Positions 1,160-4,868 of a stretch of 64,000 bases of DNA are shown here, piece by piece. Positions within the stretch are counted from its first letter, which is position 1; the number at the start of each line of letters is the position of its first letter. The stretch covers positions 186,001 to 250,000 of the forward strand of contig NZ_NESJ01000004.1 of NCBI RefSeq assembly GCF_003063645.1, read 5' to 3'. The stretch comes from Limnohabitans sp. 2KL-51 (GTDB lineage Bacteria > Pseudomonadota > Gammaproteobacteria > Burkholderiales > Burkholderiaceae_C). The notes under the pieces are model-generated. The model saw only the letters and a list, made by a program, of their open reading frames with translations, ran no database searches and was not told where the DNA came from. The translations under genes were made by a program, and so were the position numbers.

Positions 1160-1248
1160 AAGATGTGCACTTGAATTCGGTGGCCCGATCAATCCTTCGG
1201 CCTGGCCGAGGGTCCACCTGTTGCGGTGTCAAAGCCACAACAGTCCGT

Positions 1249-1270
1249 CCTGAACCCGCAAGGGTTCAGG
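1249..1270 (+). promoter_or_regulatory. puf leader hairpin with GCAA tetraloop
   Basis: A perfect 9-bp stem (CCTGAACCC / GGGTTCAGG) closes a GCAA tetraloop of the GNRA class, 36 nt upstream of the pufB start in the untranslated leader. There is no T-run after it, so it is not an intrinsic terminator. Such 5' hairpins can shield puf mRNA from decay or act as processing marks; that role is inferred. The same leader (1160-1306) holds no TGT-N12-ACA PpsR-type site. Confidence 0.6.
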
Positions 1271-1306
1271 GAGTTGCCGTAAGGCATATTGAAAGAGGCA
1301 CAAACT

Positions 1307-1472: not shown

Positions 1473-1697
1473 ATGACCCACCCGAACAAAAGTACTGCAA
1501 GCGCTCATGCCCATGGCTATTTACATGGTTATGGCGTGGTGTTTGTTTTGCTCTTCTTGGTGTTCATGGTTCTCGCTTTGGCGGGACAGTTGATGGTACT
1601 GAATTGGCGCAACTGGCTCCCTGGAGCAGAAGGATCAACGAACACTTTTGACGGTGTGACGTCTTCTGTTTACACCGTTATTTCTCAATTAAATTGA
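1473..1697 (+). CDS. Unrecognised 74-aa single-span membrane protein between pufB and pufA
   Basis: I do not recognise this protein. It is encoded in the puf operon between pufB and pufA, a position where purple bacteria normally have only a short spacer. The start is well supported: ACGGAGGT lies a few bases before ATG 1473, and gaps to neighbours are 22 and 13 nt. Residues 1-20 are polar and rich in His/Ala/Gly, about 21-43 form one strongly hydrophobic helix (VVFVLLFLVFMVLALAGQLM), then NWRNWLPG and a polar Ser/Thr-rich tail to residue 74. It lacks the beta His-N17-His pattern, the alpha MWRIW start and an AxxxH ligand inside the helix, so it is not an obvious antenna paralogue. Its length equals that of typical PufQ (about 74 aa, one helix), but PufQ sits before pufB and I see no convincing motif match. 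An RC-LH1 accessory subunit or assembly factor is the best guess from position only. Confidence 0.8.
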   Translation: MTHPNKSTASAHAHGYLHGYGVVFVLLFLVFMVLALAGQLMVLNWRNWLPGAEGSTNTFDGVTSSVYTVISQLN

Positions 1698-2877: not shown

Positions 2878-3852
2878 ATGGCTCAGTATCAGAATCTTTT
2901 CACCTCAGTGCAGCCGGTAGGGCCCTTGCACGACGGCGTTGACTTGCCCCGCGGGGACGCCAAGCGATTGGGAAAACCGTTTTTGGTGCATCTGCTAGGT
3001 CGCATTGGCAATGCCCAGATCGGCCCCGTTTATTTGGGAACGCTTGGACTGGCGTCCTTGATTTTCGGCATCGCTGCTTTCAACATCATTGGTTTCAACA
3101 TGTTGGCGTCTGTAGACTGGAATCCAATTCAGTTGCTGCGTCAGCTATTTTGGCTTGCGCTGGAGCCACCGCCTCCGGCCTATGGTTTGAGTATTCCCCC
3201 CCTTGCTCAGGGAGGATGGTGGCTCATTGTTGGCTTCATGCTCACTGTGTCAATTTTGCTGTGGTGGGCAAGAACATACCGACGCGCTCGTCAATTGGGC
3301 CTGGGAACACATGTGGCGTGGGCTTATGCTGCAGCCATTTGGTTGTATCTGGTGTGCGGTTTTTTCCGTCCGATCATGATGGGCAGTTGGTCCGAGGCGG
3401 TGCCTTTTGGCATCTTCCCTCACCTGGACTGGGTGTCTGCCTTGTCTCTGCGTCACGGCAACTTGTTTTACAACCCCTTCCACGCGCTGTCGATCGTCTT
3501 CTTGTACGGGTCGGTTCTGCTGTTTGCCATGCACGGCGCCACCATTTTGGCGGTGACTCGGTATGGCGGAGAGCGCGAGATCGAGCAAATTGTGGACCGC
3601 GGAACCGCCTCTGAGCGTGCTGGCTTGTTCTGGCGCTGGACCATGGGCTTCAATGCCACGATGGAGTCCATCCACCGTTGGGCTTGGTGGTTTGCTGTGC
3701 TGTGTCCGTTGGTTGGCGGCGTGGGTATCTTGTTGACTGGCCCCGTGGTGGATAACTGGTACCTGTGGTCGGTCAAACACCATGTGGTCCCTGCATATCC
3801 CTTGGTCAGCCCAGTCGTCCTCGATCCTGCATTGATGGGAGTCAAACCATGA
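2878..3852 (+). CDS. pufM: Photosynthetic reaction centre M subunit
   Basis: The 324-residue M chain of the type-II reaction centre, partner of PufL. It starts with the family [16 protein letters not shown] segment, has five membrane helices and shows [24 protein letters not shown] and YNPFHALSI, the regions around BChl and iron/quinone ligands. RBS AGAGGA precedes ATG 2878. Its stop overlaps the pufC start by 4 nt (ATGA), so translation of the two is probably coupled. Confidence 0.98.
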
Positions 3853-4868
3853 AATTATTGTCAAAATTAGCGCTGTGCTTGGGTGCCGCCGTGCTGCTGT
3901 CGGGCTGTGAACGGCCGCCGATTGAAACGGTCCAAACAGGCTACCGTGGAACGGGCATGGAGCAAATCTACAACCCAAGAACCTTGGCCAAGGAAGCCGC
4001 TTTGAACCAAGCGCCCGTCGCGGCAGAAGCCGCGTCAGCAGACGGTCCCAAAGCCAGCGAGGTTTATCAGAACGTGAAGGTTCTGGGAGATTTGAGTGTG
4101 GGCCAATTCAACCGTCAAATGGCGGCCATCACGCAGTGGGTCGCACCTGATCAGGGCTGTGCTTACTGCCACAACGTTCAAAACTTTGCAGATGACAGCA
4201 TGTACACCAAGGTGGTGGCCAGACGCATGATTGAAATGACCCAAAAAGTCAATCAGGACTGGAAGACCCACGTGGCGGACACGGGTGTGACTTGTTACAC
4301 CTGCCACCGTGGCAACAACGTACCCACCCAAGTTTGGAATGCACCCAAAGACCGCAAGTACGCGAACAGCTTGTTGGGTAATTTGGCGGGCCAAAACATT
4401 GCCACCAAAGAAGCTGGACTGTCTTCGTTGCCGTTTGATCCTTTCACGCCTTTCCTGAAAGACGCTTTGCCTATCCGGGTCAATGGCAATGAGGCGATGG
4501 CAGGTGTGGGCTCCTACGCCAACCGTGCATCGACCAAGCAAACGGAGTACACCTACTCTTTGATGGTGCACATGTCTGATTCCTTGGGTGTGAACTGTAC
4601 TTATTGCCACAACACACGCAACTTCCAATCTTGGGAGGAATCCAGGCCTCAACGGGTGACCTCTTGGTATGGCATTCGGATGGCGCGTGAATTGAACAAC
4701 GATTACATGACGCCCCTGACCGATACCTTCCCTGCGCACCGCTTGGGCCCCAAGGGCGATGTCGCCAAAGTCAACTGCACCACTTGCCACCAAGGCGCTT
4801 TCAAGCCTCTTTATGGTGCGCAGATGGCCAAAGACTATCCTGAACTTCAAGTCGTAGCAAAGCCTTAA
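3849..4868 (+). CDS. pufC: Tetrahaem reaction-centre cytochrome c subunit (lipoprotein)
   Basis: The RC-bound cytochrome that reduces the photo-oxidised special pair from the periplasmic side. 339 residues. The N-terminus is a lipoprotein signal (LLSGC, Cys20 the expected lipidated residue). Four CXXCH haem sites are visible in order: CAYCH, CYTCH, CTYCH and CTTCH, paired in two repeats as in the family, with Met ligands in the helices before them. ATG 3849 overlaps the pufM stop; longer in-frame starts would destroy the signal peptide. The ccmA-I genes needed for haem attachment lie 35 kb downstream in this window. Last gene of the puf operon, before a strong terminator. Confidence 0.97.

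Follow-up and report, generated by a model that had tools for sequence, protein, structure and literature searches.

The window analysed here, a 64,000-nucleotide stretch of the Limnohabitans sp. 2KL-51 genome, begins within bchZ and continues on the forward strand with pufB, a small open reading frame (hereafter the ORF), pufA, a hairpin, pufL, pufM and pufC. pufB (1307–1450) encodes a short LH1 β-polypeptide of 47 residues with the ligand histidine (PF00556, E = 3.9e-9; NF040862, E = 3.3e-19). pufA (1711–1905, with a second in-frame ATG at 1705) encodes an LH1 α-polypeptide of 64 residues that scores 22.5 bits against PF00556 (cut-off 23) and 30 bits against NF040861 (cut-off 35; E = 3.9e-7). 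Downstream, pufL (2029–2856), assigned from its frame and translation and as the second match of the pufM model, is followed by pufM (2878–3852; TIGR01115, E = 2.5e-159) and pufC (3849–4868), the gene for the RC cytochrome c, with CxxCH motifs read from the translation.

The ORF itself (1473–1697, forward strand) runs from ATG to TGA, encodes 74 residues and is present once in the genome. The preliminary description had credited its 74 codons with a strong Shine–Dalgarno sequence and tight spacing on both sides, and both are borne out: the motif ACGGAGGT is read from the sequence at 1461–1468, and gaps of 22 and 13 nt separate the ORF from pufB and from the pufA ATG at 1711, respectively. A single hydrophobic helix, also part of that description, is placed at residues 17–40 by an AlphaFold2 model with a mean pLDDT of only 66. 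The position of the gene ahead of a pufA–pufL hairpin stands as well, folding energy locating the hairpin at 1926–1964, followed by CUUUUAUU, in a region (1906–2028) that folds with −32 kcal/mol (z = −2.75; 1 of 200 shuffles equally stable).

Between bchZ and pufB lies the puf leader (1160–1306, forward strand), which folds as a structured RNA with several hairpins (−62.8 kcal/mol, z = −4.21; none of 200 shuffles as stable). Its consensus over 14 loci (the window with L002–L010, L012, L013, L015 and L016) has 32 pairs, seven of which change on both sides; Rfam gave no match in 1100–2100 at E values up to 1. A 52-codon frame (1156–1314) overlaps the leader in most relatives, but L013, L015 and L016 do not preserve it.

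The ORF is a conserved gene of puf operons

A genome scan returned 16 loci, from Limnohabitans, Curvibacter, Comamonadaceae or Burkholderiales, and the full gene lies between pufB and pufA in 15 of them, with 49–99% identity; in the exception, L017, it is cut by a contig end. For a sample chosen without using the ORF, pufM (TIGR01115) was searched in 399 genomes of the bacterial family of the window, of which 65 matched, and 61 loci were read, the window included, leaving out four with incomplete pufM. Short pufB, an ORF homologue and pufA follow one another in 52 of these 61 loci. Six have a long pufB and no ORF homologue, one pairs a short pufB with another small gene, located upstream of it, and two were unreadable, L058 because of a contig end and L033 for lack of recognisable antenna genes. 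Synteny is thus the same in 15 of 16 scanned and 52 of 61 pufM-selected loci, and what had been viewed as an insertion into a standard pufB–pufA pair is the usual arrangement in this family.

At the level of the order, a search with the family profile of the ORF matched 59 of 399 genomes at E values up to 0.01, many of them through pufB or by chance only; four of these belonged to the family set as well, 11 weak matches were not taken and 44 loci were read. An ORF homologue lies between pufB and pufA in 34 of these, and one more locus ends at a contig end directly after the gene; a long pufB alone occurs in five, an upstream gene in three, and the match in L125 was taken as chance. Selection by the ORF family's own profiles biases these proportions, as it does those given below for loci outside the order. 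About 99 genomes stand behind the 101 loci that show the full arrangement, as L002/L079 and L016/L078 are pairs lying on contigs of equal length. Twelve genomes whose pufB–pufA interval holds no ORF homologue were searched in full with the family and upstream-gene profiles, which returned the genomes' own pufB, three weak matches in long frames and, in one genome, the upstream gene.

Across 97 loci, the ORF homologue begins 3–87 nt after the preceding gene and ends 10–22 nt before the next. In L060 (about 2040–2253) the gene lacks an ATG start; a GTG that overlaps the stop codon of pufB may serve instead, and such an overlap would point to translational coupling. L124 (1579–1809) carries a divergent family member with a long-β-like ending, AANSVIPLMFM, a possible intermediate.

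The median pairwise dN/dS of the ORF over 13 close loci is 0.23, compared with 0.14 for pufB, 0.19 for pufA and 0.04 for pufL. The gene is under purifying selection, and its frame is intact in related puf operons. Constraint is unevenly distributed, with mean dN falling from 0.38 (residues 1–20) through 0.18 (21–44) to 0.08 (45–74). This last segment (1605–1694, forward strand) coincides with a C-terminal module conserved in the alignments, WRxWLPGAEG...GV...VYT..S.L, and would be the periplasmic end of the protein if its topology is β-like. Conservation rules out a chance reading frame: the ORF is a real gene, common among photosynthetic relatives.

A paralogue of the LH1 β-polypeptide

Searched singly, the ORF sequence goes unrecognised by Pfam and NCBIfam (PF00556, 10.4 bits against a cut-off of 23, E = 0.79), and the preliminary description had left it without a family. 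Among 34 relatives, however, 11 match PF00556 at E values up to 1 and 18 match the pufB model NF040862 at up to 0.1. With phmmer, the ORF retrieves LH1 β chains of solved structures directly (7xxf_B, E = 2.5e-7; 8z81_B, 1.1e-6), and the family profile A2 reaches lower E values (8z81_B, 1.5e-17; 7xxf_B, 9.1e-14; 9m8m_B, 1.3e-13), the best of its 46 matches among PDB sequences being an LH1 β with histidine. Profile–profile alignment with hhalign gives 121.7 against the long β-polypeptides, collinear across 72 columns, and 79.7–120.4 against ten single long β chains (80–122 overall); no reversed-profile control out of 30 exceeds 19.4, and none of 125 other transmembrane windows exceeds 17.5. The α profile, by comparison, reaches 18.2, inside the control range, and an α-type origin was rejected. 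Foldseek with the low-confidence model of the ORF product found nothing significant in the PDB (one match, E = 7.7). By these profile comparisons, the ORF is shown to encode a paralogue of LH1 β (PufB), most like the long β-polypeptides of about 75 residues.

The earlier view that the protein lacks both α and β signatures therefore holds for α and fails for β. The ORF product retains the transmembrane frame of β and its WRxWLPG turn, whose W, R and W residues are kept in nearly all aligned family members, as well as the C-terminal extension of long β chains; the alignments lack the cytoplasmic N-terminal LTxxEAxEFH motif. With long-extension LH1 β-polypeptides such as Rhodopila globiformis 7XXF chain B and 8z81_B it shares size, a single helix, the turn and the extension, from which it differs in the missing N-terminal motif, in the absence of histidine from 94 of 96 family sequences and in being encoded beside a normal pufB. 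A first tree of β and family sequences had its long branches meeting, and a pruned tree was used instead, from which five divergent family rows and three upstream-gene rows had been left out beforehand. There, the ORF family falls on one side of a branch from the β-polypeptides and the upstream genes (support 90/88, with the branch recovered in 87% of 200 bootstrap trees), a weak tree given that its 84 rows, 38 of them from the ORF family, span 74 columns only.

The bacteriochlorophyll-ligand histidine of β aligns with Gln39 of the ORF. Among 96 distinct family sequences, which do not include L060 and L119, this position is Gln in 73, Thr in 7, Ala, Ser, Leu and Lys in 3 each, His in 2, and Cys and Gly in 1 each. 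The missing antenna ligand reported at first sight is thus a property of 94 of 96 distinct relatives. PufB, by contrast, has the histidine in all 91 distinct sequences (82 short and 9 long β), as picked by the N-terminal EAxxFH motif, which leaves a few with EC for EA uncounted. By the histidine criterion, the ORF product is a β paralogue that would not be a pigment-binding β. The two histidine-bearing sequences, which are distinct, are those of Curvibacter L015 and L016 (4001–4222); a return to histidine looks likelier than retention, because both trees, that of PufL and that of the short proteins, place them inside the Gln group, albeit with weak likelihood support in the latter.

The gene upstream of pufB, PufQ and PufX

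Some loci carry another small gene, upstream of pufB in the position of PufQ (L130–L132, L140–L144, L147, L149, L150 and L152; L126–L128 and L072). A one-helix gene of this kind occurs in 12 of 21 loci outside the order, a set found with the family profile and biased accordingly; read by eye, 10 of the 12 have Arg at the β-histidine position, while His is present in L130 and neither residue in L132. With hhalign scores of 86.7 against long β-polypeptides and 72.2 against the ORF family, the upstream gene is, at the level of sequence profiles, also β-related.

In the family and order loci the two genes follow an either-or pattern: short pufB occurs with an ORF homologue (52 + 34 + 15 loci) or with the upstream gene (1 + 3), and long pufB occurs alone (6 + 5), making eleven loci of the order with neither gene. 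No complete and readable locus there has a short pufB alone or a long pufB with an ORF homologue, and the upstream gene and the ORF homologue are never found together in loci of the order. A quick PufL tree requires eight changes of the replacement label. A general rule, in which the C-terminal module is carried either by β or by a separate protein, holds in the loci of the order but was rejected for others, because 11 of the 21 loci from outside the order combine the upstream gene with a long pufB and 4 have a short pufB with neither gene.

The preliminary description had likened the ORF product to PufQ and PufX. PufQ is a small puf-operon protein whose deletion is reported to leave 6% of bacteriochlorophyll (PMC5725709). 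It shares with the ORF product its size (72–75 residues in ten relatives), one helix, a place in the puf operon and a conserved C-terminal end, and differs in lying upstream of pufB and in a weak direct profile score (23.8 with the ORF family). The ORF has no match to PF05398 (PufQ) at E values up to 10, and this model is absent when the hits of 34 relatives at up to 1, 20 families in all, are pooled. The profile relation to PufQ is weak and indirect. The upstream genes score 27.2–31.0 against ten PufQ proteins, presumably of Rhodobacteraceae, or 26.4 with a larger upstream set; controls reach 19.4 for reversed profiles and 21.2 for other segments (a PufL helix), and 29.9 and 37.4 for two membrane segments of loci fetched on a weak match to the PufQ model. 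The Pfam PufQ model picks up a single one of the 10 upstream proteins scanned (E = 0.021). We regard the link between the upstream gene and PufQ as a lead, not a result, and homology of the ORF to PufQ as suggested at most by these scores.

The likeness to PufX was not upheld: PF11511 matches 1 of 34 relatives at E = 0.27 and not the ORF, and the candidate was set aside. PufX and protein-W, as small RC–LH1 membrane proteins, may still be analogous in role; for PufX, no sequence relation was found and its gene lies elsewhere in puf, encoded after pufQBALM in Rhodobacteraceae (PMC6052148). The LH1 γ and γ-like polypeptides of Blastochloris and Rhodopila offer another possible analogy, as third LH1-associated polypeptides, although that of Rhodopila has 22 residues, the opposite orientation and a gene described as far from pufLMC (PMC9640540).

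Earlier descriptions and expression in relatives

The Rubrivivax gelatinosus puf operon is on record as holding two ORFs with no assigned function, of which ORF2 lies upstream of pufA (PMC12817894); it is described there as having low identity to PufA2 and no α histidine, and as probably not the source of an α gene. Roseateles depolymerans has ORF74, between pufB and pufA by locus number and of unknown function, whose co-transcription with these two genes yields a major 1-kb transcript (PMC10037100). In a sigma-factor mutant of that species, 2.34% of the TPM of ORF74 is left, compared with 1.09% for pufB and 0.71% for pufA, and under starvation ORF74, pufA and pufB are the three most changed loci (PMC10037100). 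The ORF, ORF2 and ORF74 are very probably the same gene, judging by position beside pufA, length (74 by name) and, as reported for ORF2, the lack of histidine. Beyond ORF2 and ORF74, open-licence full texts yielded no earlier description of the β nature or the structure of this protein. The gene is already in print; with the assignment to the LH1 β family, an ORF of unknown function in the Rubrivivax gelatinosus operon (PMC12817894), present also in freshwater phototrophs such as Limnohabitans, acquires a family and testable roles.

Possible roles in LH1

The gene had been proposed to encode a new LH1 subunit or an assembly factor; either role is plausible. We propose, with about an even chance of being right, an accessory protein, pigment-less and β-like, that assists LH1 assembly or the supply of bacteriochlorophyll. 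The antenna part of the puf mRNA would yield this product along with the antenna polypeptides. As a β look-alike that does not hold pigment through histidine, it might then act in assembly or pigment supply, its conserved, presumably periplasmic module engaging α/β assembly intermediates or the edge of the RC–LH1 complex; a membrane orientation as in β and contact through the C-terminal module would both be expected on this model. The ORF would stand in for the PufQ-position gene of other purple bacteria, itself β-related and mostly without histidine. A helper role is favoured because the ORF homologue and the upstream gene replace each other in the loci of the order, a replacement counted on related genomes; PufQ would be a precedent for such a helper encoded in the puf operon.

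A non-pigmented subunit of the RC–LH1 complex is a serious possibility, if somewhat short of even. One or a few copies in a β-like place, at the edge of the ring or within it, could interrupt it or hold open a quinone passage, like PufX or protein-W, or many could lie between the β-polypeptides, like γ. This role is favoured by a message at antenna level, which suits a subunit of fixed stoichiometry no less than an assembly factor; ORF74 mRNA is among the three loci most changed under starvation, together with pufA and pufB (PMC10037100). The strong Shine–Dalgarno sequence and the place before the pufA–pufL hairpin likewise predict high output, and a β without the ligand and the N-terminal motif could presumably not continue the pigment ring. 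Precedents include the extra transmembrane subunits PufX, protein-W and protein-Y (PMC10214105) and the 11 γ-like copies described in Rhodopila (PMC9640540). Against it stand the PF11511 result (1 of 34 members, E = 0.27), the location of the PufX gene after pufQBALM in Rhodobacteraceae and not in the antenna segment (PMC6052148), and the structural matches, where the best of the 46 is an LH1 β with histidine and no solved chain is known as the ORF protein.

We consider it improbable that the protein is a true minor β that binds bacteriochlorophyll through Gln or water and forms α–X pairs with shifted absorption. Glutamine is a possible Mg ligand. It occupies the position in 73 of the 96 distinct sequences, the turn residues persist in nearly all aligned members and two distinct Curvibacter sequences have histidine; yet the residue is Thr, Ala, Ser, Leu, Lys, Cys or Gly in 21 of the 96, and a published table gives R. 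depolymerans, a carrier of ORF74, an LH1 peak at 873 nm without a second band (PMC12654162). A decaying, functionless duplicate of pufB, for which the fast-evolving N terminus might speak (mean dN 0.38 compared with 0.08 in the C-terminal part), is hardly credible and largely refuted because the gene is conserved, with purifying selection, intact frames, tight spacing and presence in most readable puf loci of the family.

If the protein is a ring subunit, a core-antenna model with α and β alone would be incomplete in these bacteria; if it is an assembly factor, it would provide a handle on how LH1 is built. More tentatively, and on balance doubtfully, the puf helpers (the ORF in Burkholderiales, the PufQ-position gene of many other purple bacteria and perhaps PufQ) may form a class descended from antenna β by loss of the ligand, antenna subunits converted to assembly subunits free of pigment, one of which would now be a regular third LH1-associated polypeptide throughout the order. 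Were PufQ-position genes to derive from an antenna subunit, they would clearly exemplify an antenna protein turned helper.

Other light-harvesting genes

Against PF00556 at E values up to 10, the genome of the window gives six matches: pufB, pufA, the ORF and three in frames of 255–331 residues, which are taken as chance; an LH2 gene was rejected as a candidate on this result. Three related genomes give pufB, pufA, the ORF homologue in one case and two weak matches, both from a single genome. In a review, Limnohabitans appears with LH2 genes located within the photosynthesis cluster and with bands at 799–813 nm (PMC12654162), compared with which this genome shows no convincing LHC gene beyond puf. 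The ORF as the source of the 799–813 nm bands reported for Limnohabitans planktonicus was also considered and found no support, since R. depolymerans, with ORF74, is listed in the same review without such a band (PMC12654162).
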